A DNA stretch of 56,497 bases from an uncultured Clostridia bacterium. Lineage in GTDB: Bacteria > Bacillota > Clostridia > Oscillospirales > Oscillospiraceae. The stretch is taken from positions 1 through 56,497 of the forward strand of contig CANSSG010000018.1 of NCBI GenBank assembly GCA_947649615.1, read 5' to 3'. Positions 2,086-17,247 of this stretch are shown piece after piece. Under the pieces are notes generated by a model. That model ran no database searches, was not told the DNA's origin, and saw nothing but the letters and a program-made list of their open reading frames with translations. The position numbers and the translations under genes are program-made. How positions within the stretch are numbered: position 1 is the stretch's first letter; every line of letters begins with the position of its first letter.

Positions 2086-3063
2086 CTATTCTGTTCCGAG
2101 GTATTCAGCCGAAGCCCGCTCCAAATAATCCAAATACGTTTTTTCCAACCCAAGCCTTAAAGATGTTTTTGCCTGCCATCCCAAGGCATTAATTCGACTG
2201 ACGTCCAAAACCTTCCGTGGCATTCCATCCGGTTTGGAAGAATCAAAGCGCAGTTCCCCCCGGTACCCTACGACATCCATGATGATTTCCGCCAACTCTT
2301 GAATGGTCATATCAATACCGGTTCCTACGTTTAGAAATTGTGAATCACTATACGCATTTTCCAAGAGGAAAACACACGCATCCGCCAAATCATCACTGTA
2401 CATAACTTCCCGGCGTGCCTTTCCGGTCCCCCAGAGCGTAATATGCTGCGCATTAGTTATTTTGGCCTCATGCACCTTCCTAATCAATGCTGGAACTACG
2501 TGGGAGCGGATAGGATCAAAATTATCACCCGGACCATACAAATTACACGGCATAACACTGATATAGGCATATCCGTACTGCTGGTTGATAAATTCGCAAA
2601 GTTTCAGACCAGCAATCTTAGCCAAAGCATAGCCCTCATTGGTAGGTTCAGGCTTTCCATCCAGCAAATATTCCTCCCGCATTGGCTGAGGAGACAAACG
2701 CGGGTAAACACAGGAAGACGCCAGAAAAATTAGCCTGCGGACGCCATGCTTTGCAGCAGAGTAAATAACATGGTTTTGAATTGCTAAATTATCATACAAA
2801 AATTCAACTGGGGAATTCATATTTGCCTGGATGCCGCCCACTCTTGCTGCGGCTAAAATCACGCAGTCTGGGCTTTCCTGCACAATATAAGCTTCCGTTT
2901 CTTGCTGGCGCCGCAAATCCAGCTCTCTTGAGCGGAGACCGATGATATTGCTATATCCTCGCTCCATCAATTTTCTGACAATCGCGGAACCGGCCATTCC
3001 GCTCCCGCCGGCAACCCAAATTTTTGCGCTTTTTTCTAAAGCATCCTGTTTTCCCACTATCAT
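2086..3063 (-). CDS. fcl: GDP-L-fucose synthase / GDP-L-colitose synthase family epimerase-reductase
   Basis: 325 aa from an ATG that overlaps the upstream stop as ATGA (3060-3063); an ATG three codons earlier is less likely. It is an extended short-chain dehydrogenase with N-terminal glycine motif GGSGMAGSA and catalytic YxxxK (YALAK). It matches Fcl/WcaG strongly, including the ASSCVYP and NLYGPGDNFDP segments. Fcl epimerises C3/C5 and reduces C4 of GDP-4-keto-6-deoxymannose; its close relative ColC does the equivalent step on the 3-deoxy compound to give GDP-L-colitose. Gmd lies two genes upstream, but a PLP dehydratase sits between them, so colitose is as plausible as fucose. Sequence alone does not separate Fcl from ColC. 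Confidence 0.85.
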   Translation of the reverse strand: MIVGKQDALEKSAKIWVAGGSGMAGSAIVRKLMERGYSNIIGLRSRELDLRRQQETEAYIVQESPDCVILAAARVGGIQANMNSPVEFLYDNLAIQNHVIYSAAKHGVRRLIFLASSCVYPRLSPQPMREEYLLDGKPEPTNEGYALAKIAGLKLCEFINQQYGYAYISVMPCNLYGPGDNFDPIRSHVVPALIRKVHEAKITNAQHITLWGTGKARREVMYSDDLADACVFLLENAYSDSQFLNVGTGIDMTIQELAEIIMDVVGYRGELRFDSSKPDGMPRKVLDVSRINALGWQAKTSLRLGLEKTYLDYLERASAEYLGTE

Positions 3064-4265
3064 CCGGCACAATGTCCTTTCAAATAGGTATGGATCGTCT
3101 CGATTTCATACTCCAGATCCATCTGGCTGAGTCCATGATGGCAACCGATGTAAAAGCCATTATGATTAACATACTCTGCAGCAGGGTACGCTTTCTCAAT
3201 ATCGCCAAATATTTTCTTATACGCCGGCTGGTTTAGCAATGGCAGCATGGGACGGGTTTCAATATTGTGCTTTTCAAGATACTTCACCAAATCTGCCCGG
3301 TTAATTCCGCTACCTTTGCGAGGAAGGAGCGGGAACATCATATAAGTATGTTCGACACTCTCAGGATGCCGCGGCAACTGAATCTTATCCTCATAAGGAG
3401 TAAGACCGTCTATTAACACCTGTGCATTGCGCCGTCGTGCGCCCATAATCTCGTCCACGCGTTCTAGCTGTCCCAATCCCAGCGCCCCTTCTAATTCACC
3501 AACGCGGCAGCTATACCCCAGCCGCACGAACATAAAGCGCCGGTCTATGTCTGTATCCATACGCTTGGGGCAAACAACATTCGCATCGCTGGCTAGGCAC
3601 CGCTCACAAGTACAGGCGCGGCCATGTGCCACAAGACTTCGCATAACTTCCATCAAACTACGGTCGCTGGTACACATGATGCCGCCTACTCCAGTGGTGA
3701 TCGTGTGCGCTACATATGTACTGCATGCCATAATATCTGAGAAACTCCCAACGGTTCGCCCGTTAATCGTGGCAAAATGCGCCTCTGCGCAATCCTCTAA
3801 AATCCGGAGATGGTATTTTTGAGCAATAGACACTATGCGCTCCATGTCGCAAGGCATTCCAAAGCAATGAACTGGAATAATACATTTTGTACGCGGGGTA
3901 ATATGCTTTTCAATTTCATCCGGATTCATATTATATGTCGCCAAATCAATATCTACAAAAACAGGCTTCATTCCAGCGTGTAAAACTGCATTACTGGTTG
4001 CAATAAAGGTAATGGCAGGAACCAATACCTCGGTCTCATCCGTCCATCCATCCGTTTCCCGCAGAGCTTCCAGAGCTAAATGGAGGGCGCTCGTCCCACT
4101 ATTGCACATGATGCCATACTTCTGACCGTGCATTTGGGAGAATCTTTTTTCAAATTCGACTACAAATTTGCCCTGTGACAAGCGCTGGTTGTCTAAGGCA
4201 TCCATTACATATCTTTTTTCTATTTCTGACACAGATGCATACCCTACGCCAATTTTATTACGCAT
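3060..4265 (-). CDS. PLP-dependent 3-dehydratase of the DegT/ColD/RfbH type (active-site Lys replaced by His), cysteine-rich
   Basis: 401 aa; the ATG at 4265 is chosen because a GGAGGAG site lies 6 nt upstream. The fold is DegT/DnrJ/EryC1/StrS aminotransferase: NSGTSALHLAL near 55, VPAITFIATSNAV near 82 and ILEDCAEAH near 155. At the place of the PLP-binding lysine the sequence reads STYVAHTITTG, so His187 replaces Lys. This substitution is known in sugar 3-dehydratases ColD (GDP-4-keto-6-deoxymannose) and RfbH/E1 (CDP sugars). It also has Cys159, Cys218, Cys220, Cys223 and Cys232, resembling the [2Fe-2S] spacing C-x57-C-x1-C-x7-C of E1, which ColD lacks. Next to gmd and an Fcl/ColC homologue, a 3-deoxygenation of the GDP-keto sugar is the natural role. 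The exact electron donor is unknown. Confidence 0.75.
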   Translation of the reverse strand: MRNKIGVGYASVSEIEKRYVMDALDNQRLSQGKFVVEFEKRFSQMHGQKYGIMCNSGTSALHLALEALRETDGWTDETEVLVPAITFIATSNAVLHAGMKPVFVDIDLATYNMNPDEIEKHITPRTKCIIPVHCFGMPCDMERIVSIAQKYHLRILEDCAEAHFATINGRTVGSFSDIMACSTYVAHTITTGVGGIMCTSDRSLMEVMRSLVAHGRACTCERCLASDANVVCPKRMDTDIDRRFMFVRLGYSCRVGELEGALGLGQLERVDEIMGARRRNAQVLIDGLTPYEDKIQLPRHPESVEHTYMMFPLLPRKGSGINRADLVKYLEKHNIETRPMLPLLNQPAYKKIFGDIEKAYPAAEYVNHNGFYIGCHHGLSQMDLEYEIETIHTYLKGHCAG

Positions 4266-4279
4266 ACTGCGCTCCTCCA

Positions 4280-5326
4280 CTAAATATTTTTTAAGGCTCT
4301 CTCCCGCTTTGCCAACGCACGGTCATGGCTTGCCATGACCGTAACCAGCTTTGCAAAGCTGGTTTGCGCAGGGTTCCAGCCCAAAACAGCCTTCGCTTTT
4401 GTCGGATCGCCCAGTAGATTGACAACGTCCGTCGGACGGTACCACTTGGGGTTCACGCAAACTAGCATCTTCCCTGTCTGTAGGTCGTAACCCTTTTCTT
4501 CCAAGCCGGTTCCTTCCCAGCGAACAGTCATACCATTTGCGGCAAACGCCGCTTCCACGAACTCTCGCACTGTATGTTGCACACCGGTGGCAATCACAAA
4601 ATCGTCCGGCTCATTGTGCTGGAGCATTAACCACATGCACTCCACATAGTCCCCGGCATAGCCCCAATCCCGCAAAGAGTTCATATTGCCAAGTTCCAGG
4701 TGGTCTTGCAATCCTTCTGCAATGCGTCCAGCGGCCAACGTAATTTTTCGGGTAACAAAGTTCTCTCCACGCCGCTCAGACTCATGGTTAAACAGTATCC
4801 CGTTGGCAGCGAACATTCCATAAGCTTCACGGTATTCTTTGGTAATCCAGTAGCCATACTGTTTTGCTACGGCATAAGGACTGTATGGGTGAAATGGAGT
4901 AGTTTCTTTCTGCGGGACTTCCTCCACTTTGCCAAACAACTCAGATGTGGATGCCTGATAGAATCTAGTTGTATTTGTTAGATTCAAAATGCGGATGGCT
5001 TCCAAAACACGCAAGACGCCGATAGCATTGACATCACCGGAATATTCTGGTACATCAAAAGATACCTGCACATGGCTCTGGGCAGCTAAGTTATATATCT
5101 CGTCCGGTTGAATGGTGCCGATAATACGAATCAACGAGGATGCATCTGTCAGATCTCCTTCATGGAGTATGATTTGATGATCCACCATCAGGTGGTCAAT
5201 ACGCGCTGTATTGGACAGGGATGCCCGCCGTACCAAACCGTGGACCTCATAACCCTTTGATAGCAAAAGTTCCGCCAGAAAAGAACCATCTTGGCCCGTG
5301 ATGCCGGTGATAAGCGCGGTTTTCAT
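4280..5326 (-). CDS. gmd: GDP-mannose 4,6-dehydratase
   Basis: About 348 aa from the ATG beginning [15 protein letters not shown]; an upstream TTG would add 11 unlikely residues. It converts GDP-D-mannose to GDP-4-keto-6-deoxy-D-mannose with tightly bound NADP. Diagnostic features are the N-terminal TGITGQDGS nucleotide-binding loop, [27 protein letters not shown], the catalytic TSELFGKV and YxxxK (YAVAK) segments, and [18 protein letters not shown]. These are near-invariant in Gmd. The stop codon lies 14 bp before the ATG of the dehydratase. It supplies the keto sugar for the next two genes. A 128-bp gap separates it from the upstream reductase, the largest gap in the island besides the flagellin terminator region, so a separate promoter is possible; I see no clear consensus there. 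Confidence 0.95.
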
Positions 5327-5454
5327 TACATAATACCCCCATTCAGTGTAGGGCGCCAATCCAGTGCCCCATCCTTGTTGAACGATTTAGAAAATCTGCA
5401 TATGTCAAACAAATGCCACTTGCTCTTATATGTCCACACGGTTATTGTTTAGGC

Positions 5455-6408
5455 CTATCCATCTATTAGCTTTATATTAGTTCGTACCCATTCGATAGTT
5501 TTTTTGATTCCATCCGCAAAAGCAACCCTTGGTGTAAAGCCCGTCTGCGCAGTCAATGCATAAATATCTGCTTGCAAGTGCATGACCTGAACTGGGGAGT
5601 ACGGCACTTCGCCAAATCCTATCGGCAGGGATGGATCAATTGTATCTCTAAGGATCTCCACATAATTCTTGAGCGGCATAGCCATACCACTGCCCAATGG
5701 ATAAATCGCCCCATCCTGCCCGTACAGTGCCGCACAATATAACGCCTCCGCCGCATCCGCGACATATAAATAGTCCCAGACTTGCTCCCCGGCAGTCAAG
5801 CTGGGACGTTGATTCATTAAAAGCTTTCGAGTTGTACGCATAATCATACTTCCAGGATCGTCGCCCGGCCCATATACAGACAAAATCCGCGTCCAGATGT
5901 GCGCAATTCCCAATCGTCCACATTCCAGACGGCTCATCTGACCCGCGCAGAGTTTGGCTGCTCCGTATGGGTTCTCTGGTTTACAAGGCGTATCCGGCTT
6001 CAGCGCCCCATCTACGTATCCGTATTCCGCCTGACTACCAGCGCCTATGAAAATCTGGCAGCCAAGTTCCGATGCAGCATGTACCGCATCAATTGTGCTG
6101 CTGATATTGGCAATTTGGCACAGCACATTATTTCGGGCTTCTTTGGAAGTTCCCGACCATGCCAGGTGAAAATAAGCATCTACTGGCTCCCCGACTTTAC
6201 CTGGAAGTCTGGCATAATCTGCTATATCGCAGGGAATCGTACAAAGATTATCATTGACAGGCAATATGCCCTGCCGGTAGCTGTTTGGGCGGCAAACAGC
6301 GTATACGTATACTCCGTTATTCAGCAACCGCTGGCACAATGCACATCCTATTGCTCCTGTCGGGCCAGTAACAACAGCCGTTTTTATCTTACGTGGATGG
6401 ACTGGCAT
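5455..6408 (-). CDS. NAD(P)-dependent epimerase/reductase of the short-chain dehydrogenase family (nucleotide-sugar reductase)
   Basis: 317 aa, extended SDR fold: TGPTGAIGCAL glycine motif near residue 14, LAWSGTS, GAGSQAEYG and the catalytic YxxxK as NPYGAAKLCAG, then a typical WDYLYVADAAEAL segment. The family includes the reductases that finish CDP-3,6-dideoxyhexoses (abequose/paratose synthases) and the YerF-type reductase of the yersiniose pathway. The ATG directly follows the TAA of the thiamine-diphosphate enzyme (TAAATG), so the two are translationally linked. With rfbF/G/H upstream, reduction of a CDP-4-keto or CDP-4-C-acetyl sugar is the likely job. Choice among abequose-, paratose- and YerF-like activity cannot be made from the sequence. 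Confidence 0.75.
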   Translation of the reverse strand: MPVHPRKIKTAVVTGPTGAIGCALCQRLLNNGVYVYAVCRPNSYRQGILPVNDNLCTIPCDIADYARLPGKVGEPVDAYFHLAWSGTSKEARNNVLCQIANISSTIDAVHAASELGCQIFIGAGSQAEYGYVDGALKPDTPCKPENPYGAAKLCAGQMSRLECGRLGIAHIWTRILSVYGPGDDPGSMIMRTTRKLLMNQRPSLTAGEQVWDYLYVADAAEALYCAALYGQDGAIYPLGSGMAMPLKNYVEILRDTIDPSLPIGFGEVPYSPVQVMHLQADIYALTAQTGFTPRVAFADGIKKTIEWVRTNIKLIDG

Positions 6409-8166
6409 TTACAGCATCTCCTCATGTGGCAGACAGCTTTGCGCCCTAGATTTATACTTCAAAATAGTACTAATTTCATTTTGCAATTTCTCTGACAATG
6501 GCGGCTCTTGCTCATGAATAGGTTTATTCAGACCTAGCTTAGGAACAAGCCTAGTTGTCTGCGGTAATGCAACTTCAATAAAGGCTGGATCTGCATCTGC
6601 CAATATTGATTTCAAAGAAATCTCATTTGTATAGCGCATTGCACGAATTCCATACGCCTTTGCAATGCCTATAAAGTCTGGAACAGTAAATCCTGCGCTA
6701 TCGTCTGTCTGCACAAAGTTGCTGTCGAAATACATCTCCTGGAAGTGGTGTATCATTCCAAGCGCCCGGTTGTTTAATAAAATAATTTTAATTGGCAGGT
6801 GCTCTCTCACAACCGTTTGTAATTCCTGAATATTCATTTGAAGCCCACCATCGCCTGTTACGCATATTATAGGATGCTTCGTTGCTATTGCCGCTCCTAT
6901 CGCCGCTGGCAGGCTATACCCCATTGCACCATGTCCTCCCGAAAAAAGGATTCGCTGGTTTTCCTTTACTTCTAAACTTTGTGCAACCCACACTTGGTTC
7001 TGTCCAACATCTGTTGTAATCACTACTCCGTCTGGGCATAGTTCTCCCAACTTTTCTACAAATAAGCTTGCCGGCTCCAACCGGTCAGCATATTTTAATT
7101 TGGAGTATATTTTCATGCAGCAGTGCTGCCAATCGTGAAATTTCCATATGATTTGCTTCGATTTTTCCAGCAAAACCGGCAGCAATTCCTCAAGGAGAAC
7201 TTCATAATGCGTTTCCCAATCATTGACCCTATGTTCTAGTTCACTCTGATCAATGTCAACCCGCAACAATTTCGCAGTTGGTGCAAACATATCTCGACAT
7301 GTCCCGGTTTGCCGGGAATCCAGGCGGCTGCCCAGCGACAAAATACAGTCACTATGATTCACCAAATAGTTCGACCACCTGTTGCCATATGCGCCTATCA
7401 TTCCGTAACAATAAGCAGATTTGCTTGGAAGTACATCAACTGCAATCATGCTAGTTACTGTCGGAATTCCAGTCTGTTCCACAAACGCACGAAAATACTC
7501 CCTGGAACCAGAAAGGGTAATTCCATGTCCTGCTAAAATGACAGGGCGATGGGCTTTTTGGAGTTCATGGAGAATGCCGGTGGCGATTTCGACAGGTGGG
7601 ACAACCGGTTGTAAAGGTTGATCCCACAGAGGGAGAGGTTTTTCAATATCCTCTCTCCAAACATTCATTGGGATGTCCACCAAAACCGGACCGCGCCGCC
7701 CCTCCATAGAAACCCGATACAGAGTTTCAAGTAATTCTGGCAGCTCTGACGCATTGCGTACCATGACCGCTTGCTTCGTGATTGGCTGCGCCATAGAAAC
7801 AATATCGGTTTCCTGAAATCCTTTTTGCCGTACCCGTAGGTTCTCTTTTTGTTCATATGTATTTACTTGACCTGTGATAAAAATACAGGGCAACGAGTCA
7901 AAATAAGCGCAGGCAATTCCTGTCAGTAGATTTGTTGCGCCAGGACCACTGGTTGCATATGCTACTCCGGGCAGTCCTGTCATCTCGGCCCATCCACAAG
8001 CTGCCATGGCACACGCTTGTTCATGATAATTTAAGTGCGCTGAAATCTGCATCCGGTATTTGTCAAGCGAGTCCATAAAATGGGTTACCATTCCACCGGG
8101 ATAACCAAAAATGTCTGTAATTTTGTGTTGAATCAAAAATTCTACAACGTAGTCAGATGCTTTCAT
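6409..8166 (-). CDS. thiamine-diphosphate enzyme of the acetolactate-synthase family, probably sugar-branching (YerE-like)
   Basis: 585 aa with the full three-domain acetolactate synthase layout. The catalytic glutamate is Glu49 (HLNYHEQACAMAA), the mid domain spans about 190-340, and the cofactor motif runs from GDGG at 438 to NN at 465. The same family includes YerE, which condenses a two-carbon unit from pyruvate with CDP-3,6-dideoxy-4-ketoglucose, and it includes true acetolactate synthases. Context favours the sugar role: no ilvN, ilvC or other branched-chain amino acid genes are near. The gene is inside a nucleotide-sugar operon, between a glycosyltransferase and a reductase abutting its stop codon, in the same cluster as rfbF, rfbG and rfbH. 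Family membership is sure; substrate is inferred. Confidence 0.75.
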   Translation of the reverse strand: MKASDYVVEFLIQHKITDIFGYPGGMVTHFMDSLDKYRMQISAHLNYHEQACAMAACGWAEMTGLPGVAYATSGPGATNLLTGIACAYFDSLPCIFITGQVNTYEQKENLRVRQKGFQETDIVSMAQPITKQAVMVRNASELPELLETLYRVSMEGRRGPVLVDIPMNVWREDIEKPLPLWDQPLQPVVPPVEIATGILHELQKAHRPVILAGHGITLSGSREYFRAFVEQTGIPTVTSMIAVDVLPSKSAYCYGMIGAYGNRWSNYLVNHSDCILSLGSRLDSRQTGTCRDMFAPTAKLLRVDIDQSELEHRVNDWETHYEVLLEELLPVLLEKSKQIIWKFHDWQHCCMKIYSKLKYADRLEPASLFVEKLGELCPDGVVITTDVGQNQVWVAQSLEVKENQRILFSGGHGAMGYSLPAAIGAAIATKHPIICVTGDGGLQMNIQELQTVVREHLPIKIILLNNRALGMIHHFQEMYFDSNFVQTDDSAGFTVPDFIGIAKAYGIRAMRYTNEISLKSILADADPAFIEVALPQTTRLVPKLGLNKPIHEQEPPLSEKLQNEISTILKYKSRAQSCLPHEEML

Positions 8167-8207
8167 ATTCTTGCACCCTTATAAAATATCTTCTCAATCC
8201 GTTACCA

Positions 8208-9884
8208 CTATATTTGTATCAAATACCAACCGTTCCCTATATCCTTCTTTGCTAAACATTCCTGCAAAAGAAAACGTTTATTTTGTTCACTCCATTTTAA
8301 AATTAACCGGCCGCCTGGCCCAAGGCTTTCTTGGCAAACCTTAAAAATTGTCTTGAACTGCACCCCAGTTAAAAAAGGTGCTTCCCATATGACGTACTGA
8401 ACAGTTTTTCCATGTAAGAACTGTTTTAATTCTTCAGCACTTGAGATTAATTTGGCGTCATCACTGATCCCTTTCAAATCTAAGAGAAAACTGGGCGCAT
8501 CTGTTATGTTATAAAGTACAGTGTCTATATTATGCCAATACTCTTTCAACTGCTCCTTGATACGAAGCGAATTGCTGCCCATGCCACAGTTGATCCCCAA
8601 AATCTCTGTATGCGTATGACTCTCCTCTACCACGCATTGCATAAATGCCGCATCAAAGCAAAACCCTGCACCCCAAGGATCGATTCCAAAATTCTTGTAA
8701 AATGCTTGCCGTCCTTTAAGATAGAATTCTGCTTCTGTCTCCTCCCGCTTGGTTACATCCTCTTTTATGGTAACAGAACCAAAATGATAGCAGTAAGCAT
8801 CCTTTGCCAGCATCAACTTGTATCCTCTGCGTCTCAACAAAAGCGACCGCCGGTCATCCGGAAAGGCTAAATCTGTTGCTGCACCTAAGTAGCTATTGTC
8901 AAATATCCCCTGGCAGCCAAAAAAAGCTGCACTGCGCCAGACAGCAATCGGGTCACACAGCCTAGTTCTTTGTTCCCAGCGAAACGGATCGGACACGTTA
9001 TTCTGTCTTGTAAACTCGTTCATTTCCTCTAAGGAGCTATACTGTGCCGGAATTGTCTGGAAATTGGATGTATTCGGGGTGCTTGGTACAACAAAAGCAA
9101 TTTGATCATTAGATTGGATACATTTCAACATATTGGAAATGGTATTGCATCCAATTATGACATCATTGGAAATAAAGAAGGCAAACTTAGATTCTATGAT
9201 CCGCCTAACAATGTCGAATCCCGCTCCGTTGACTGCAATATCTAACTGCTTGGTCGGTTGAATACTCTCAAAGTACTCTCTGGTTCCATCGTTGGAACCA
9301 TGATTGACTAAAATCAATTCATACCGCAACCCCTTAGGAATATTCCGCAGCAGACTCTCCACACACATTTTGGTATAGTCCAACTTGTTGTAACCAATCA
9401 CTACAAACGCAGCCTCAAAGGGGTATTCCCCTGTCTCCTCCGATTGGTCAATATAATAATTTCCGCAGAGTGATGGCACTTCTTCACGGTATTGTTCCAT
9501 CCGCTCTGAATCTTTCACCGCCCACAGCCAATACCGCGCATGTTGGAAGGCTTCCTCAATTAAGGGAATTAACTCGAACTGGAGCCTGGACAGCCGATAT
9601 GATTCATCTGCTTTTCGGATTCGTACGCGCGACAGGGTGTCCTGAATACTCTGCAAGATTTTGGTCAACGAAATATCCTGATACCCCTTACCAAGCTGTT
9701 CTTCCAGAAGTTGTATCATTTTAGCGGCCATGGTGTATAAATTTTTTGTGATGTCGTCAAATTGTCTACCGCTGCCAAAGTCTTGTTGTAACAGGTAGCA
9801 CGCAGCTTCATGCATGGTAGAAATGCTGGAAAAGAAATGTTCTGTTACCGACTCCTCCATCTGGCGGCATTGATTTTTTTTCAT
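8208..9884 (-). CDS. GT2-type glycosyltransferase with N-terminal helical and C-terminal methyltransferase-like regions
   Basis: 558 aa from the ATG overlapping the rfbG stop as ATGA (9881-9884). Residues ~1-125 are predicted helical. A GT-A glycosyltransferase domain follows, beginning AAFVVIGYNKLDYTKMCVESLL, with NHGSNDGTREYF as the nucleotide-binding loop and ISNDV at the usual DxD position. The last ~135 residues begin ILGINCGMGSNS and end with LGPGGRLIL, echoing a SAM-methyltransferase Rossmann fold, although the first glycine motif is degenerate. Multi-domain GT2 proteins of this kind are typical of flagellin glycosylation islands in Clostridia. Donor and acceptor are unknown. The coding region is visibly more AT-rich than rfbG just upstream. 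Confidence 0.75.
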   Translation of the reverse strand: MKKNQCRQMEESVTEHFFSSISTMHEAACYLLQQDFGSGRQFDDITKNLYTMAAKMIQLLEEQLGKGYQDISLTKILQSIQDTLSRVRIRKADESYRLSRLQFELIPLIEEAFQHARYWLWAVKDSERMEQYREEVPSLCGNYYIDQSEETGEYPFEAAFVVIGYNKLDYTKMCVESLLRNIPKGLRYELILVNHGSNDGTREYFESIQPTKQLDIAVNGAGFDIVRRIIESKFAFFISNDVIIGCNTISNMLKCIQSNDQIAFVVPSTPNTSNFQTIPAQYSSLEEMNEFTRQNNVSDPFRWEQRTRLCDPIAVWRSAAFFGCQGIFDNSYLGAATDLAFPDDRRSLLLRRRGYKLMLAKDAYCYHFGSVTIKEDVTKREETEAEFYLKGRQAFYKNFGIDPWGAGFCFDAAFMQCVVEESHTHTEILGINCGMGSNSLRIKEQLKEYWHNIDTVLYNITDAPSFLLDLKGISDDAKLISSAEELKQFLHGKTVQYVIWEAPFLTGVQFKTIFKVCQESLGPGGRLILKWSEQNKRFLLQECLAKKDIGNGWYLIQI

Positions 9885-10966
9885 ACCTGCTCCTTGTCCT
9901 GCACTTGATAGAAGGTATGGATCTGCCTGCGGCAAATCTCCTCCGGATCTGCCGTCCGGTACTCCCGGTACCACTCAGCCGTCCACCGCAGCGTCTCTTC
10001 CAAAGGAAGCTGCGAAACCCAGCCCAGCCGCTCCCGCGCCTTCGTACTGTCCAGCAGTAAAACCGCGTCCTCGTGTGGCGCAGCCGTTTCTTCCCGCGCT
10101 TCCACGCTTCCGCCGTACAACCCGGCAATCTGGCCCGCAACCTCGCCAACAGTAGCGACCTGTTTCGCATCCGGTCCAAAATTCCAGCCCTCGCAGAACT
10201 CCGCAGGCTGCTCCCACAGCCGCTCCGCCAGCATCAGATATCCCCGCAGCGGCTCCAGCACAAACTGCCATGGACGAACAGCGCCCGGATTCCGCAACAC
10301 AACCGGCTTTCCTGTCTCCATTGCCCGGATACAATCCGGAATCAGCCGATCCGCTGCCCAGTCCCCTCCACCGATGACGTTTCCAGCCCGGGCGCTGGCG
10401 ACTGCCGTTTGGCAAAGTCCGCTTCCCCCCTGCGTAAAGAAGGAGCGGCGGTAAGAGGCAATCAATATCTCCGCGCAGCCCTTGCTGGCACTGTAGGGGT
10501 CGTAGCCTCCCATTGGGTCCGTCTCACGGTACCCCTGCATGGTTTTGCGGTTTTCATAACATTTGTCCGTCGTAATCATCACGGCACTGCGGACACTGTC
10601 CGTATGCCGGATGGCTTCCAAAACGTTCAGCGTGCCGATGACGTTTGTTTCGTATGTAAGCTTCGGTTCCTGATAGGAGCGGCGCACCAGCGGTTGCGCC
10701 GCCAGATGAAAGACGATTTCCGGCTGATGTTTCTGTACCACCGCTTCCAGCTTTCCGGCATCCAGAATATTTCCCCGGATGTCCGTTACCTTCTCCTCCA
10801 ATCTGCAAGCGGTATAGTTGTCCCGTTCACTGGCCGGAGACAGTGCATATCCGATGACCTCCGCTCCCATTTCCAGCAGCCAAAGACAGAGCCATGAGCC
10901 CTTGAATCCGGTATGGCCCGTCACCAATACCCGTTTGCCGCGCCAAAACACGCTGTTTACACCCAT
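9881..10966 (-). CDS. rfbG: CDP-glucose 4,6-dehydratase
   Basis: 361 aa. It converts CDP-D-glucose to CDP-4-keto-6-deoxyglucose. The SDR signature is complete: VLVTGHTGFKGSWL at residues ~13-26 (GHTGFKG is characteristic of this subfamily), HLAAQPLVRRSY, ITTDKCYEN, and the YxxxK as YSASKGCAE. ARAGNVIGGGDWA and the RPWQFVLEPL segment are further hallmarks. An AAAGGAG site precedes the ATG, 16 bp after the rfbH stop, and its own stop overlaps the next glycosyltransferase. It supplies the substrate of RfbH. Codon use is GC-rich like the chromosome core, unlike the flanking glycosyltransferases, suggesting that rfbFGH moved or evolved as a separate block. Confidence 0.95.
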   Translation of the reverse strand: MGVNSVFWRGKRVLVTGHTGFKGSWLCLWLLEMGAEVIGYALSPASERDNYTACRLEEKVTDIRGNILDAGKLEAVVQKHQPEIVFHLAAQPLVRRSYQEPKLTYETNVIGTLNVLEAIRHTDSVRSAVMITTDKCYENRKTMQGYRETDPMGGYDPYSASKGCAEILIASYRRSFFTQGGSGLCQTAVASARAGNVIGGGDWAADRLIPDCIRAMETGKPVVLRNPGAVRPWQFVLEPLRGYLMLAERLWEQPAEFCEGWNFGPDAKQVATVGEVAGQIAGLYGGSVEAREETAAPHEDAVLLLDSTKARERLGWVSQLPLEETLRWTAEWYREYRTADPEEICRRQIHTFYQVQDKEQV

Positions 10967-10982
10967 TTAGCCGTCTCCTTTT

Positions 10983-12326
10983 TCACGTATGTGTTTCGCA
11001 AAACCGCCGGATCTCCTCCGCCATATAGCGCAGCATTTCTTCCGTCATCCCCGGATAGACTCCAATCCAGAAGCTCCGCTCCATCACGGTGTCCGTGTTG
11101 TCCAGCGTCTCCACTACACGGTATCCCCTGCCGGATTTCCGCAGTTCGTCGAAGCAGGGGTGCCGCAGAAGATTTCCCGCAAAAAGATTTCGGGTCTGGA
11201 TGTTTTTGCTCTCCAGGTAACGGGTCAGATCATCTCTGGAAAATCCTGCGGTTTCTTTCACTGTGATGAGCAACCCAAACCAGCTTGCCCGGCTGTCCGG
11301 CCCCTCCTCGGGAAGAATCAGCGTTTCCGACAGACCATCCAGAAGTTCCCGCAGCAAGGCCCAATTCTTCCGTCTCAGATGGACAAACTGGTCCAACTTC
11401 TTCAATTGCGCACAGCCTACCGCCGCCTGCAAATCGGTCGCTTTCAGGTTATAACCCAGATGAGAATAGACGTATTTGTGGTCATATCCCCTAGGCAATT
11501 CTCCAAACTGCCCGTCAAAGCGGCAGCCGCAGGTCCCATCCTTCCCCGGCGGACACCAGCAGTCCCGTCCCCAGTCCCGGAGAGAATTCACAATGCGGTG
11601 CAGCAGCGGGTCATCCGTGTAGACTGCGCCGCCTTCCCCCATGGTGATGTGGTGGGGCGGGTAGAAGCTGGATGTCCCAATATGTCCCACCGTACCGCTC
11701 TTTTTCCACACGCCCTGATAACAGTACTCCGCCCCCAGCGCGTCGCAGTTGTCTTCAATGAGCCATAGTTTATTGGCATCGCAAAACGGCCGGACCCTAT
11801 TTAAATCAAAGGGATTTCCCATGGTATGGGCGATCATGACCGCCTTTGTCCGGGGCGAAAGCGCTTTTTCTAGTTGGGAAACGTCTATGTTATACTGGGG
11901 AATTGTAATGTCTACAAAAGCGGGCGCTGCACCGTATTGGATGATTGGCGCGACAGTAGTCGGAAATCCTGCCGCGACGGTGATTACTTCGTCTCCGGGC
12001 TGAATTCTCCTGCCGCCAAGCGCAGGCGAAGTCAGCGCTGCAAACGCCAGAAGATTGGCGGAGGACCCTGAGTTCACCAGGGAGCAATACCGGACGCCAA
12101 GCCACGAGGCCAGACCGGATTCAAACTCCCGGGTATAGTTCCCTCCGGTGAGCCAGAACTCAAGGGATGCAGAAACTAATTCCCGCAGTTCCTCCTGGTC
12201 AAATACCCGGCCGGCATAGTTGACACGGTCTCCCGGCTGAAACGGCGGCTTCTGTCCGAATTGAGCCTGATAGTACTTCTCGGTCAGCGCCAGTATTTGT
12301 TCCCGAATAGTTTGTGCATTGCTCAT
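10983..12326 (-). CDS. rfbH: CDP-4-keto-6-deoxyglucose 3-dehydratase (E1), PLP and [2Fe-2S] enzyme
   Basis: 447 aa. RfbH/DdhC removes the C3 hydroxyl of CDP-4-keto-6-deoxyglucose on the way to 3,6-dideoxyhexoses. The PLP lysine is replaced by His225 in SSFYPPHHITMGEGG, the hallmark of this enzyme. The iron-sulfur cysteines are visible: Cys194 (EDNCDALG), Cys256, Cys258 and Cys266 (RDCWCPPGKDGTC), matching the C-x57-C-x1-C-x7-C pattern of Yersinia E1 with a four-residue longer first spacer. Gene order rfbF-rfbH-rfbG differs from the enterobacterial order. The usual partner reductase E3 (RfbI/DdhD, a ferredoxin-like flavoprotein) is not in the window, so electrons must come from elsewhere. Confidence 0.95.
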   Translation of the reverse strand: MSNAQTIREQILALTEKYYQAQFGQKPPFQPGDRVNYAGRVFDQEELRELVSASLEFWLTGGNYTREFESGLASWLGVRYCSLVNSGSSANLLAFAALTSPALGGRRIQPGDEVITVAAGFPTTVAPIIQYGAAPAFVDITIPQYNIDVSQLEKALSPRTKAVMIAHTMGNPFDLNRVRPFCDANKLWLIEDNCDALGAEYCYQGVWKKSGTVGHIGTSSFYPPHHITMGEGGAVYTDDPLLHRIVNSLRDWGRDCWCPPGKDGTCGCRFDGQFGELPRGYDHKYVYSHLGYNLKATDLQAAVGCAQLKKLDQFVHLRRKNWALLRELLDGLSETLILPEEGPDSRASWFGLLITVKETAGFSRDDLTRYLESKNIQTRNLFAGNLLRHPCFDELRKSGRGYRVVETLDNTDTVMERSFWIGVYPGMTEEMLRYMAEEIRRFCETHT

Positions 12327-12353
12327 ATGGCAACCCTTTCCCGGATGTACCGA

Positions 12354-13133
12354 TTACCAAACATACCAAGGAGCCGACTGCTCCTGCCACAGCTGCTCCA
12401 GTTTCCCCTTGTCCCGCTGGGTGTCCATGCACTGCCAGAAACCGGCATGCTTATAAATACCCAGCAACCCTTCCTGTGCCAGGGTTTCCAACGGCTTCCG
12501 CTCCAAAATACAGCTTTCTTCCGCGCTGAGATACTGGAACACCTCCGGTTCCATCACCATAAATCCGCCGTTAATCCAGCCGCCGTCCTCCCTGGCCTTC
12601 TCCCGGAAGCCCATGACTGTCCTGCCCGATTCGTCCAGGTCCAACACACCGAACCGGCCTCCTGGCTGGATGCCGGTAAGGGTCACAATTTTACCGGATG
12701 CTTCATGCTGCGCCAGCAGGGCGTTCAAATCAATGTCGCTTACCCCGTCGCCGTATGTCAGCATGAACCGCTCATCCCCTATGTACTTTTGCACCCGTTT
12801 CACCCGTCCACCCGTCTGGGTATTCAGCCCGGTGTCCACCAGCGTCACCCGCCATGGCTCCGCCACATTCTGGTGAACCGTCATACGGTTTTCATCAGAA
12901 AAGTCAAAGGTAACATCCGACCGGTGCAGATAATAGTCCGCGAAATATTCTTTAATTACATGCCCTTTATACCCGCAGCAAATTAAGAAATCATGGAACC
13001 CAAAACTGGAGTAATATTTCATGATGTGCCACAGAATTGGCTGCTCGCCAATGGGAATCATCGGCTTGGGCTTCAGGTAGCTTTCCTCGCTGATGCGGGT
13101 CCCTAAGCCGCCCGCTAAAATTACAATTTTCAT
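12354..13133 (-). CDS. rfbF: glucose-1-phosphate cytidylyltransferase
   Basis: 259 aa. It makes CDP-glucose from CTP and glucose-1-phosphate, committing carbon to the CDP-sugar branch. The N-terminus has the nucleotidyltransferase motif LAGGLGTRISEE (residues 6-17) followed by PKPMIPIGEQPILWHIMK; the YGDGVSDIDL motif near 130 and the EVFQYL and WQCMDT segments are typical of RfbF. The ATG overlaps the stop of the upstream glycosyltransferase as ATGA (13130-13133). Length matches the family (about 257 aa). It is the first enzyme of the rfbF-rfbH-rfbG series. Confidence 0.95.
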   Translation of the reverse strand: MKIVILAGGLGTRISEESYLKPKPMIPIGEQPILWHIMKYYSSFGFHDFLICCGYKGHVIKEYFADYYLHRSDVTFDFSDENRMTVHQNVAEPWRVTLVDTGLNTQTGGRVKRVQKYIGDERFMLTYGDGVSDIDLNALLAQHEASGKIVTLTGIQPGGRFGVLDLDESGRTVMGFREKAREDGGWINGGFMVMEPEVFQYLSAEESCILERKPLETLAQEGLLGIYKHAGFWQCMDTQRDKGKLEQLWQEQSAPWYVW

Positions 13134-15298
13134 TGCGGCAGTCCTCCAAACACGCCCAGGTCCGGCCCTTCAATCAGATGCGCTACCTTCTGATACGCCG
13201 CGCTCTGCTTCAAAGCCTCCACCGCCGGGTCATCCGCAGGATACATGGAAAGCAGCGTCCGCACCTGCTCCGCCAGGCTCAGCAGCTCCGGCGTAGCCTG
13301 GACCCTCTGGCTCTCTTCCAACTGCGTCAGCAGGAATTCAACCATGGACTTCATCTCCGGGCAGATATCCAAACCCTTCCGCAGCAGGCGGACGTACTCA
13401 GCCGGGTCCCCGGCATCCAGCGCCCAGAAGGCCTTGCCGCAGTACCAGCCGAAGCGGTGCATGGGCGGCAGCATCCGGATGTTTTCGTCACACAGCAGCT
13501 CGGGAGCATAGTACCTGGGCAAGAACGTATTCTCAATTTTTGCAAACGCCTGGCATAGTTCCATCCCCTGCTTACTGTCCACCCAATCGCAGGTCTTGAC
13601 CGCCGCCAGCGCCAGCCCCCTGGCCCAAGCCAAAGATTGCCAATTTTCCGCAAGGTCTTCTTCTGCCGCCAGGATTGCCAAACCTACCAAAGGGCTGTCC
13701 TTTCGTGACATGCGGGCGGCAAAGACATCCATCTCCTCAATATTTAACACTTTAGACGCAAGAGGAAAGCGCACACCGCCTAAAATGGCATGCTCCAAAG
13801 CGTAGATTGAAAACTCATTCCAATTTTCCACCGAATCAAGCAGTCTCTCCAGCTCTGCCTGATCATCAGTTTCCAAAGCCACAACAGCGGTTCCTAATTC
13901 ACAATCCTTATGGTCTATAAGCGAATGAAAAACGGTATAGGAATGCCGCTTAAACTCTTCTCGCGTTAGTTCATCATCTCTATAATTTTTAGTTAATGCA
14001 TTGGCAGCAACACGCAGGAATTCTATCCGGCGCTTTTCTGCCATCGCCTTGTCTGGGAAGGGCAGGTTAATCTGATTCCAAAATGCATTTACTACGGCGG
14101 CAGCGTCTAGTTGCGTTGTCCGCTGAATCCGCATCAGCATATTGACGCACAACTCGATCTGCCGGTCATCTTCCAACTCGCCGCCCTTAACATTCCGAAT
14201 CCCGGCTAATGCTTTTTCAGGTTCATTTAGCTCCAAATAGACCTGCGGCAGCAAAACAGAGATTTTTCTTTCCCAAAATGGCGACGCGAATTCCAGCACT
14301 CCCCGAGTGGATTCGCTCGTATTGTAATTCCCTGCAAAGTAGTCCGCTAGGCCCTTACAGTATGCTTCGCCCCAATAGGCAGCCTCATTGTACTTTTTTT
14401 CATCAAAGTAGTAGACAAAAGCATAGTAAGCGAGATCGACCCGGACAAAAATGGAATCCGGAAAACACGCTACCCCTTGCCTGATCCACTCTTCCATCTC
14501 TGGCAGTTGATGTAGCTGCGCAACGGACACCGCATTACGGAATACGACACCCCCAAATCTATCCCATGTAGGACACTTCTGCCCCACAAGTTCAACCGAC
14601 TGCCGCGCATATTCGGCACTTTCGATACCGTGGTGTTTAGAGGAATCGACACACTCAATTAAAGTCTGGAGATGGTTGGGGTTTTCACGCAGCTTTTTCT
14701 TCAAAAGCGCCATGTTCCGCTCGCGCTTTGCTTGTTCCGCCGCCTTGTCTTCGTAGATGTACCCATCATGATAGAACATGGTTTTGGAGAGCGTCATGAT
14801 TTCCAGCGTACTTCCGTCCGGGTTGCTCCAAGACTCATGAATACAGCCTTTGTAGCGTATCCCAGTACTCATTCGAAGTAACCGGACAGCGACAAACTCC
14901 ACATAATTCTGCCCTTTTTCCAAATCAAATGATTTGTAGTTGCGGAGCGTAACACCGCCAAAATTGAGCGGTTGCTTCTGATCCTTAGAAAGCAGAACCA
15001 ATTCGTCAATATTTTCCGCCAACCACTCGTCGGCGTCAATGGAAAGATACCAGGCGCCCGAGCAGCGATCCATTACCGCGTTTCGCGCGGCGGAAAAATC
15101 ATCGACCCACGGAAAGTCAAACAGAATGTCCGCATATCTCTCCGCAACTTCACGGCTCCCATCGGACGAGCCAGTATCCGCCATCACCAGCTCACAGGGG
15201 ACTGCATTTCTCAACGGCTGAAGGGATTTCAAGCACCGCTCCAAACAGCGAATTTCATTTTTAAAAATAATTCCAATGGAGTAAAAAGGCTTTTTCAT
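13130..15298 (-). CDS. GT2 glycosyltransferase with TPR-like C-terminal region, candidate flagellin glycosyltransferase
   Basis: 722 aa. An N-terminal GT2 domain (about 1-230) carries SIGIIFKNEIRCLERCLKSL, ADTGSSDGSREVA and the metal-binding SIDADEW (DxD) motif; this subfamily resembles SunT/YkcC-like transferases. The remaining ~490 residues are helical repeats of TPR type, probably a protein-binding scaffold. It is the first gene after flagellin on the same strand, preceded by GAAGGAG. In Clostridia a GT2 gene directly beside flagellin commonly initiates flagellin O-glycosylation, so that role is inferred here. Base composition shifts within the gene: the part encoding the N-terminal two thirds is more AT-rich than the last ~600 bp. 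Confidence 0.8.
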   Translation of the reverse strand: MKKPFYSIGIIFKNEIRCLERCLKSLQPLRNAVPCELVMADTGSSDGSREVAERYADILFDFPWVDDFSAARNAVMDRCSGAWYLSIDADEWLAENIDELVLLSKDQKQPLNFGGVTLRNYKSFDLEKGQNYVEFVAVRLLRMSTGIRYKGCIHESWSNPDGSTLEIMTLSKTMFYHDGYIYEDKAAEQAKRERNMALLKKKLRENPNHLQTLIECVDSSKHHGIESAEYARQSVELVGQKCPTWDRFGGVVFRNAVSVAQLHQLPEMEEWIRQGVACFPDSIFVRVDLAYYAFVYYFDEKKYNEAAYWGEAYCKGLADYFAGNYNTSESTRGVLEFASPFWERKISVLLPQVYLELNEPEKALAGIRNVKGGELEDDRQIELCVNMLMRIQRTTQLDAAAVVNAFWNQINLPFPDKAMAEKRRIEFLRVAANALTKNYRDDELTREEFKRHSYTVFHSLIDHKDCELGTAVVALETDDQAELERLLDSVENWNEFSIYALEHAILGGVRFPLASKVLNIEEMDVFAARMSRKDSPLVGLAILAAEEDLAENWQSLAWARGLALAAVKTCDWVDSKQGMELCQAFAKIENTFLPRYYAPELLCDENIRMLPPMHRFGWYCGKAFWALDAGDPAEYVRLLRKGLDICPEMKSMVEFLLTQLEESQRVQATPELLSLAEQVRTLLSMYPADDPAVEALKQSAAYQKVAHLIEGPDLGVFGGLPQ

Positions 15299-15441: not shown

Positions 15442-17247
15442 TTAGCCGAGGAGCTGGAGGACGCCCTGAGGAATCTGGTTGGCCTGGGCCAGCATGGCCT
15501 GGGCGGACTGCACCAGAATGTTGTTCTTGGTGTAGGCCATCATTTCCTCGGCGACGTCGGTGTCGCGGATGGTGGACTCGGCGTCCTGGATGTTCTCCTT
15601 CATCACGGACAGGTTGTTCTGGGTGTGCTCCAGACGGTTCTGGGTGGCGCCCAGGGTACCACGGATGGAGGAAACAGTGTTGATAGCGTCCTTAATCTGA
15701 TTGACCGCCGCAGCAGCGCTGGTCTGACTGGCAATGCTGATCTTGTCAATGCCCAGGGCTGCGGTGTGGATGTCGCCGATATTGACCTTCAGCTGGTTGA
15801 AGCTCTCGCTGGTGTCGCCAATCTGCAGGGTCAGGGCCTTGCCGGTGCCTGCCTTGAGAGTGGCCTGGCCGAAGGAAAGCAGCCCCTGCCACGCTTCGTT
15901 GGTGTTCTTGTTGGAGTCCAAGGCGGTGGAGCCACCGTTCATACTGCCCAGGCCATCCTCGCCGGCCAGGTTGTTCACCAGGTAATCAATGCCGCCGTCC
16001 TTTTCGGTAAGGCTGAGCGTAATAGCATTTCCGGCATCGTTGACCTTCGAGCCGACAAAGAACTGCTTATTATCCCGGGCGGCCTGTACCAGGCGCTGGC
16101 CGGCAAGGTTCAGCTGCTCTGCGATCAGCGTACCACTACTAGCAATTTTCTGGTCAGTCAGATCAATCACGTTTTCGAAATCCTTGTACTTGCTGTCCTT
16201 GCCAAGAGCAAATACATACGTGGTGTCTCCAATCTTGATTGCACTGCCGTCTTTTATCTGATTCGGACCCAATGTAAAGACAGCCTGGGCGTACTCTTTG
16301 GCGGCTTTGGCCGCTGCTTCCTGCTCAGTATAAACCTCGAACTGGTTTCCGGTGTTGGAGGCGACCTGCGTATCTTTGCTGCTGCCAACGCCGGCAGTGA
16401 ACGCAGCATCAAAAACGACCTTGGTTGCTTCATCCTTTGTCTTCGGGATGTTGTCCATTTCGACAACTACCTTCCCGCCATCGGCCTTGAAGTTGTATGT
16501 CATTGTGTCGCCAGCGACGATAGTGCTGCCGTTAAGCTTAGCGAGTTCATCGGCAATTGCCTTGGCGAGCTTTTCACCTTCCAGGCTGGAACCCGCAGCA
16601 ATTGAAAGATTCACCGATACAGCGGCGGTCAGCTTGAAGCTTACCGAGATAGCTCCGGTAGAGTTGTTCGTCAGGGTCGCCTGGCTGAAGTCAACGCTGT
16701 AGATACCCTTCTGGGGGTTCTTGCCGGCCAGCTGTCCGTCAGCGACAACGGAGAAGCCGTAGGCGGTACCGTTATCCTTGGCAATGTCCGTGGGCTCCAG
16801 AATCGTGTAGCCGCTGCCGCCGTCCAGAGAACCGTCCAGCAGCTTGATGCCGTTGAAGTTGGAGCTGTCGGCAATACGGTTGATTTCGGAACGGAGCTGG
16901 TCAACTTCCTTCTGGAGGTTGGCGCGGTCCACTTCGTTGTCATAGGTGCCGTTGGCGGACTGGGTAGCCAGGTTGACCATGCGGTTGAGCATGTCCTGAA
17001 CTTCCTGCATGGCGCCTTCAGCGGTCTTCACCAGGGAGATGCCGTCCTTAACGTTCTTGCTGGCGGCGTCCAGGCCGGTGATCTGGGCGCGCATCTTCTC
17101 GGAAATAGCCAGGCCGGCGGCGTCGTCGCCCGCGCGGTTGATACGGTAACCGGAAGACAGCTTCTCCAGGTTCTTGGAAACAGCGGAGGTATTGAGGTTG
17201 TAGTTGCGGTAGGCGTTCATTGCCGCAATATTGTGTTGAATACGCAT
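15442..17247 (-). CDS. hag: flagellin
   Basis: 601 aa, the filament subunit. The conserved N-terminal D0/D1 domain begins MRIQHNIAAMNAYRNYN and includes LSSGYRINRAGDDAAGLAISEKM; the C-terminal D1/D0 domain contains DTDVAEEMMAYTKNNILVQ and ends QGVLQLLG. The central ~330 residues (about 160-490) form a large variable D2/D3 region rich in Ser, Thr, Ala and Asn, roughly double the size of the Bacillus Hag protein and with many possible O-glycosylation sites. There is no signal peptide, as expected for type III export. The leader carries two hairpins with GGA in the loop, one containing the ribosome site, and csrA is the next gene upstream. A strong terminator follows. Confidence 0.97.
   Translation of the reverse strand: MRIQHNIAAMNAYRNYNLNTSAVSKNLEKLSSGYRINRAGDDAAGLAISEKMRAQITGLDAASKNVKDGISLVKTAEGAMQEVQDMLNRMVNLATQSANGTYDNEVDRANLQKEVDQLRSEINRIADSSNFNGIKLLDGSLDGGSGYTILEPTDIAKDNGTAYGFSVVADGQLAGKNPQKGIYSVDFSQATLTNNSTGAISVSFKLTAAVSVNLSIAAGSSLEGEKLAKAIADELAKLNGSTIVAGDTMTYNFKADGGKVVVEMDNIPKTKDEATKVVFDAAFTAGVGSSKDTQVASNTGNQFEVYTEQEAAAKAAKEYAQAVFTLGPNQIKDGSAIKIGDTTYVFALGKDSKYKDFENVIDLTDQKIASSGTLIAEQLNLAGQRLVQAARDNKQFFVGSKVNDAGNAITLSLTEKDGGIDYLVNNLAGEDGLGSMNGGSTALDSNKNTNEAWQGLLSFGQATLKAGTGKALTLQIGDTSESFNQLKVNIGDIHTAALGIDKISIASQTSAAAAVNQIKDAINTVSSIRGTLGATQNRLEHTQNNLSVMKENIQDAESTIRDTDVAEEMMAYTKNNILVQSAQAMLAQANQIPQGVLQLLG

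Follow-up and report, generated by a model that had tools for sequence, protein, structure and literature searches.

Gene Content of the Locus

The stretch of DNA analyzed here (56,497 bp, hereafter the window) is contig C18 of the draft genome of an uncultured Clostridia bacterium (2.65 Mb, 70 contigs). Twelve minus-strand genes form a single row in it, from a flagellin gene (positions 15442–17247) through to a gene of the GT11 glycosyltransferase family (122–2068). Their order is flagellin, a large GT2-type glycosyltransferase, rfbF, rfbH, rfbG, a second GT2-type glycosyltransferase, a thiamine diphosphate (ThDP) enzyme, an extended short-chain dehydrogenase/reductase (SDR), gmd, an rfbH-like gene, an fcl-like gene and GT11. 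Gaps between consecutive genes are at most 143 bp and several genes overlap. Sugar genes and glycosyltransferases share one row with a flagellin gene, as in a flagellin glycosylation island. A first-pass annotation of the sequence had read rfbF, rfbG and rfbH, followed by the ThDP enzyme and the SDR, as a possible yersiniose-type pathway. All five genes are present at the positions it gave; the order of the series had to be corrected to F-H-G, with the second GT2 gene (8208–9884) lying between rfbG and the ThDP gene.

The identities of the three rfb genes are clear, as their products all exceed curated NCBIfam cut-offs. The product of rfbF (ddhA; 12354–13133), a glucose-1-phosphate cytidylyltransferase, scores 389 bits with TIGR02623 (cut-off 300); that of rfbG (ddhB; 9881–10966), a cytidine diphosphate (CDP)-glucose 4,6-dehydratase, scores 477 bits with TIGR02622 (cut-off 278); and that of rfbH (ddhC; 10983–12326), a CDP-4-keto-6-deoxyglucose 3-dehydratase, scores 702 bits with NF011936 (cut-off 423). 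The closest solved chain of RfbH is the CDP-4-keto-6-deoxyglucose 3-dehydrase 3BCX (487 bits), which we take to be the Yersinia enzyme. In RfbH, a histidine replaces the lysine that binds pyridoxal phosphate (PLP), and the cysteines at 3BCX chain positions 193, 251, 253 and 261, counted on the alignment, are conserved; these are presumably the ligands of the iron-sulfur cluster.

The ThDP Enzyme Is Predicted To Be YerE-like

The ThDP protein (585 amino acids; 6409–8166) contains three Pfam TPP domains above cut-off. Acetolactate synthase models cover nearly its whole length, the top two reaching 425 of 738 and 405 of 538 bits, and all 25 models listed for the protein fall below their curated cut-offs. 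Its best solved relative is 5AHK (355 bits; 38% identity over 542 aligned residues), followed by plant acetohydroxy acid synthase (AHAS) and E. coli AHAS I (291 bits each) and by JanthE (8RPH, 257 bits). With a profile built from eight relatives, the scores become 609 bits for 5AHK, 472 for plant AHAS and 430 for JanthE. The title of 5AHK reads acetohydroxy acid synthase Pf5 of P. protegens; we take this chain to be the enzyme named PpYerE. The equation is helped by a review that states that structures of PpYerE and JanthE exist (PMC12247030).

The first-pass annotation had proposed phylogeny against YerE and IlvB as a check of its reading, and the outcome agrees with that reading. In a tree of 88 rows, a branch with 100% support separates all 11 AHAS references and E. 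coli Gcl from the window protein, PpYerE, JanthE and 73 further rows. The references were E. coli IlvB and IlvI, Salmonella IlvG, a plasmid IlvB, the Arabidopsis enzyme, the organism’s own IlvB and five sequences from relatives; two AHAS from congeners (L130, L131), one catabolic-type reference, L048_1 and 16 near-duplicates were left out. The tree was built by a quick method with support from the Shimodaira–Hasegawa-like approximate likelihood ratio test (SH-aLRT) only, and long branches were flagged for PpYerE, JanthE and Gcl. The YerE-like side is made up of a JanthE branch, a PpYerE branch and a branch with the window protein whose members are almost all Bacillota, and the tree does not fix the order of the three. 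Nearest to the window protein are sequences from Oscillibacter valericigenes An890 (66% identity), D16-76 and UBA7060.

Signature residues were counted in 83 YerE-like rows, themselves retrieved with the window protein and two relatives as queries, and in the 11 AHAS rows (again leaving out L130 and L131). Eight of 91 rows had been excluded beforehand (seven JanthE-side second enzymes and L053_1), and the JanthE-side L093_3 was counted. A six-column insertion after the GQVN-T motif carries Glu105 in 82 of the 83 YerE-like rows, and its columns are gapped in all 11 AHAS. Arg113 is found in 82/83 YerE-like rows (Gly in 11/11 AHAS), Gln114 in 83/83 (0/11), Tyr260 in 81/83 (His in 11/11) and Phe475 in 80/83 (Trp in 10/11). 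We assume that the tryptophan at the last of these positions governs the choice of acceptor in AHAS. At all five marker positions 5AHK matches the window protein. The ThDP machinery itself is present: the catalytic Glu49 occurs in 82 of 83 rows, with one gap, and GDG438–440 in every row.

The closest paralogue in the same genome (38% identity), located on contig C26, is IlvB itself (683 bits, cut-off 538; TIGR00118). There ilvB, ilvN, ilvC and ilvD stand in one row, all four above NCBIfam cut-offs, so the synthesis of branched-chain amino acids does not depend on the window enzyme. Neither a small subunit gene nor any ilv gene was found beside the ThDP gene in the window. Judged by its sequence, then, the ThDP enzyme is a putative YerE-like carboligase, not a biosynthetic acetolactate synthase, and its place amid genes for a CDP-3,6-dideoxy-4-keto sugar supports the branched-sugar pathway of the first-pass annotation as a prediction.

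The Adjacent SDR

As had been noted in the first reading, the TAA stop codon of the ThDP gene directly abuts the ATG of the SDR gene (5455–6408), with 0 bases between them; the same zero gap is found in loci L026, L039 and L043 of relatives. The SDR (Pfam Epimerase, 110 bits) carries the motifs TGPTGAIG and YGAAK. By predicted fold it is a generic extended SDR whose top Foldseek match is guanosine diphosphate (GDP)-4-keto-6-deoxymannose reductase. Relatives of the SDR scoring at least 150 bits are present in 23 of the 44 YerE-like loci from Bacillota and in 0 of 13 RfbH loci whose retrieved stretch has no ThDP enzyme (Fisher test, 3.8e-4, with the 150-bit threshold picked post hoc). The evidence leans towards an SDR that would act after the addition of the branch, in the role of YerF, as a putative reductase of the branched CDP-keto sugar. 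The stereospecific reduction that gives yersiniose A or B has been described as uncharacterized (PMC4753412).

Distribution among Relatives

Relatives were collected by a contig scan with three query sequences, and the counts that follow refer to the best 80 of 493 confirmed stretches, with flanks of at most 10 kb on each side, often shorter, and with locus labels assigned at 120, 100 and 120 bits. The cassette is conserved: RfbH accompanies the ThDP gene in 67/80 loci, RfbG in 56/80, RfbF in 55/80 and all three in 49/80. An open reading frame (ORF) labelled as the window SDR is present in 53 of the 80, and in 44 it lies within 150 bp of the ThDP gene.

Across 398 sampled genomes of the phylum, RfbH is found above cut-off in 23 and the ThDP enzyme, at E 1e-105, in three, all of which are among the 23 (hypergeometric test, 1.7e-4). 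Without the window’s own genome, the co-occurrence is 2/2 (2.9e-3). The two thus occur together more than expected by chance. The ThDP gene is found in 4 of 394 genomes of the order, own genome counted.

Further RfbH loci (20 of 21 such loci, all taken outside the three YerE-positive genomes; G522 was left out) were inspected separately. Seven of the 20 (L165, L171, L176, L177, L180, L182 and L183) contain a ThDP enzyme scoring 250–318 bits against the window enzyme; it may be common for a branching enzyme to lie near RfbH. A second, JanthE-side ThDP enzyme directly adjoins the YerE-like one in L027, L035, L038, L047 and L051, is separated from it by one ORF in L094 and lies in the same locus in L049. 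Such pairs suggest two branching steps in one pathway. Four Clostridia loci (L032, L034, L036 and L037) have a YerE-like gene and no rfb genes in the flank. In G349 (L009, 1069–2811), a protein that combines collagen-like repeats with a CBM96 domain adjoins an RfbF-RfbG-YerE-like-RfbH set and a relative of the window GT2; this protein may also carry a branched sugar.

The Flagellin Island in Congeners

The flagellin at the head of the row (601 amino acids) scores 148 bits with Pfam Flagellin_N and 93 bits with Flagellin_C. It is followed by the large GT2-type glycosyltransferase (13130–15298; 722 amino acids; Glycos_transf_2, 52 bits), a proposed flagellin glycosyltransferase for which no TPR family was reported in the Pfam scan. 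A search of 19 other genomes gave full-length relatives of the latter (43–57% identity) in five. In all five congeners a flagellin sequence lies upstream of the large glycosyltransferase, directly in three and with one ORF between in two; in the latter two only the end of the flagellin is present, at the contig start, and the intervening ORF has no Pfam match. RfbF (82–86% identity) comes next after the large glycosyltransferase in four of the five, and the contig of the fifth ends there. The island position behind flagellin is thus found both in the window and in congeners. After RfbF the tails vary, and RfbG, where it is found, in two congeners, is 48% and 40% identical. A conserved head followed by variable cassettes is the arrangement of a flagellin island and supports the first-pass annotation on this point.

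Two of these tails deserve description. In congener G122 (L118), radical SAM/SPASM and AMP-binding enzymes follow RfbF. In congener G601 (L119, 10812–12559; L191, 2396–4120), transketolase halves are located near RfbG and a ThDP enzyme stands at the end of the island. The best solved match of that enzyme is JanthE (309 bits, versus 260 for E. coli AHAS I); from their sequences, the transketolase halves and the JanthE-like protein are candidates for two further carbon-carbon enzymes.

The second GT2-type glycosyltransferase of the window (8208–9884; Glycos_transf_2, 30 bits), whose start ATG overlaps the rfbG stop codon, is a candidate transferase for the branched sugar; its relatives adjoin RfbG in L119 and L121. 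GC content falls from 0.51–0.59 in the head of the row to 0.43–0.50 from position 9884 onward, with a similar drop in L121, and GC content at third codon positions is low (0.41–0.52) from the 8208–9884 gene onward. Given this drop and the comparison with congeners, the branched-sugar cassette appears to be a module that was exchanged within the flagellin island.

The genome has a second flagellin gene (G000:C1:64835; L115, 7138–9273), making two strong Flagellin_N places in all. No match to the other island genes of the window was found in 20 kb around it.

A Second Nucleotide-Sugar Route

The remaining genes of the row encode a possible second route. The gmd product (4280–5359, with an ATG at 5326) is a GDP-mannose 4,6-dehydratase (TIGR01472, 515 bits, cut-off 415). 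It is followed by a DegT protein resembling RfbH, ColD and perosamine synthase (3060–4280; NF011936, 259 bits, under the cut-off of 423) and an Fcl/ColC-like epimerase-reductase (2086–3072; NF047922, 436 bits, under the cut-off of 500). As read from its sequence, the DegT protein carries a cysteine cluster and has histidine where the PLP lysine would lie; against solved chains it scores 211 bits with perosamine synthase, 194 with E1 and 166 with a ColD-type enzyme. Possible products of the three genes (2086–5359) are a GDP-colitose-like GDP-3,6-dideoxyhexose or GDP-fucose. The last gene before the contig end encodes the fucosyltransferase-like GT11 protein (Glyco_transf_11, 46 bits).

Proposed Pathway

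Taken together, the locus is probably an island for flagellin glycosylation whose product would be a yersiniose-type, C4-branched 3,6-dideoxyhexose, an unusual sugar known chiefly from the outer coats of other bacteria. RfbF would form CDP-glucose, RfbG would convert it to CDP-4-keto-6-deoxyglucose, and RfbH, as a PLP and iron-sulfur enzyme, would yield CDP-4-keto-3,6-dideoxyglucose. The YerE-like enzyme would then decarboxylate a 2-oxo acid, with pyruvate the most likely donor, and place the two-carbon unit onto the C4 ketone, after which the SDR would reduce the new acetyl branch to a hydroxyethyl group. The second GT2 (8208–9884) and the flagellin-linked glycosyltransferase (13130–15298) would put the sugar into a glycan on the flagellin encoded upstream. 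In this scheme we infer the enzyme activities, the donor, the stereochemistry, the order of transfer and the attachment to flagellin; the sugar itself would be yersiniose A, its C7 epimer or a sugar with a longer branch.

Several observations weigh against this assignment. JanthE scores lower with the window protein than AHAS chains do (257 versus 291 bits), the branch of the window protein is separate from both characterized enzymes, PpYerE and JanthE, and the predicted fold does not separate YerE-like enzymes from AHAS. The association of the SDR with YerE-like genes is not significant by a rank test on all scores (p 0.10), since 21 of the YerE-like loci lack such an SDR or carry a lower-scoring one. 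No dedicated RfbH reductase (DdhD/E3) was found in the draft genome; of its five Fer2 matches, one is RACo by Pfam and four, read by eye, resemble small subunits of the xanthine dehydrogenase type. A coarse motif scan of 102 loci likewise found no DdhD-like reductase. The row runs into the contig end, so that genes may be missing. All three rfb genes are absent from 11 of the best 80 loci, four of which span at least 15 kb (L032, L034, L037 and L063). The ThDP gene is rare nearby (1 of 25 genomes of the genus and, at E 1e-100, 1 of 200 of the family, own genome counted). Lastly, flagellin was found in 0 of the best 80 loci within their flanks, and a tblastn search of the cassette loci with flagellin termini gave no match; since the flanks of relatives are without flagellin, the link to flagellin rests on this genome and its congeners.

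The alternative that fares best, which we consider rather unlikely, is that the ThDP enzyme adds a longer, functionalized 2-oxo acid, like ErwE and JanthE, in which case the branch would not be two carbons long. Donor range does differ among YerE-like enzymes (PMC12247030), the window’s branch stands apart from PpYerE as well as from JanthE, and several loci pair JanthE-like with YerE-like relatives. Against this, the window protein is closer to PpYerE than to JanthE (355 versus 257 bits), and pyruvate is the preferred donor of YpYerE, as stated in the same review (PMC12247030).

Less probable still is that the YerE-like enzyme makes a branched sugar destined for a surface polysaccharide, the cassette having merely landed behind the flagellin operon. 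The missing flagellin in the loci of the 80 best relatives would fit such a history, as would L037, where the YerE-like gene precedes the capsule genes Wzz and CpsB/CapC, and the drop in third-position GC from the 8208–9884 gene, a mark of later acquisition. However, the head of flagellin, glycosyltransferase and RfbF recurs with variable tails in congeners, the row is tightly spaced with overlapping genes, and polymerase, flippase and chain-length families matched 0 of its 12 genes in our scans, the row being cut by the contig end.

A plain 3,6-dideoxyhexose of the paratose or abequose type, with the SDR reducing C4 in the manner of RfbS or RfbJ and the ThDP enzyme serving another role, appears improbable. 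The SDR is generic by fold, its best structural match is a GDP-4-keto-6-deoxymannose reductase, and the rank test quoted above is compatible with this view; in addition, CDP-paratose genes have been predicted in a flagellin island of Clostridium butyricum DSM 10702 (PMC13317340). The contrast of 23/44 with 0/13 loci, at its post hoc threshold, and the zero-gap coupling of the SDR to the ThDP gene, here and in three other loci, argue the other way. That the ThDP enzyme is a biosynthetic or catabolic acetolactate synthase present by chance is very improbable: near full-length family matches and a compatible fold would allow it, whereas all 25 listed models stay under cut-offs of which the organism’s own IlvB passes that of TIGR00118, tree and signature residues point away from AHAS, and no small subunit adjoins the gene.

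Comparison with Known Systems and Implications

We take the genes of the CDP-yersiniose A route of Yersinia pseudotuberculosis serovar VI to be those named DdhA, DdhB, DdhC, YerE and YerF. By gene set, the window resembles this route in rfbF, rfbG and rfbH, the YerE-like enzyme and the adjacent SDR, and differs from it in that no DdhD was found, a glycosyltransferase lies inside the set and the locus stands behind flagellin rather than in an O-antigen cluster. YpYerE transfers activated acetaldehyde to CDP-3,6-dideoxy-4-keto-D-glucose (PMC12247030). PpYerE of Pseudomonas protegens (5AHK) is the best solved relative of the window enzyme and agrees with it at the five marker positions, but shares only 38% identity and belongs to another branch of the YerE-like side. 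JanthE lies on the same side of the tree and is the best solved kin of the G601 island enzyme; it differs from the window enzyme in branch and in having CDG where the latter has GDG (PMC12247030).

The Clostridium flagellin islands, for which CDP-paratose or a 3,6-dideoxyhexose is predicted, also contain rfbF, rfbG and rfbH in a Bacillota flagellin island, with GT2 proteins as the proposed flagellin glycosyltransferases (PMC13317340); the YerE-like enzyme is an addition of the present locus. The main text of that paper contains no mention of acetolactate, thiamine, yersiniose or branched (PMC13317340). Enterobacterial islands with CDP-4-keto-6-deoxyglucose genes are also in print (PMC4875605), and YerE-like enzymes have been associated chiefly with lipopolysaccharide and further sugars of the cell envelope (PMC12247030). 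The first-pass annotation knew of no branched 3,6-dideoxy sugar on flagellin of a Firmicute. No description of a branched 3,6-dideoxy sugar on flagellin was found in the literature searched. Since a 3,6-dideoxyhexose had already been predicted in Clostridium flagellin islands (PMC13317340), the new element is the branch.

A broader and more tentative reading, possible but not favored, is that flagellin islands of the genus start from CDP-glucose and then swap modules, including different ThDP carbon-carbon enzymes (YerE-like here; JanthE-like and a split transketolase in a congener), so that the filament would display variable C-branched deoxysugars. Here, a single flagellin glycan would receive two 3,6-dideoxy sugars, one CDP-linked and branched and one GDP-colitose-like, supplied by two RfbH-type dehydratases.

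The large Bacillota branch of YerE-like carboligases may be of use in biocatalysis, and the residue signature described above separates these enzymes from acetolactate synthase. Flagellin is a protein sensed by host immunity. If the proposed pathway is correct, flagellin of a member of the Bacillota would bear a tertiary-alcohol sugar of a kind not described there in the literature searched, and the locus suggests that the swimming filament of this organism is decorated with a branched sugar.

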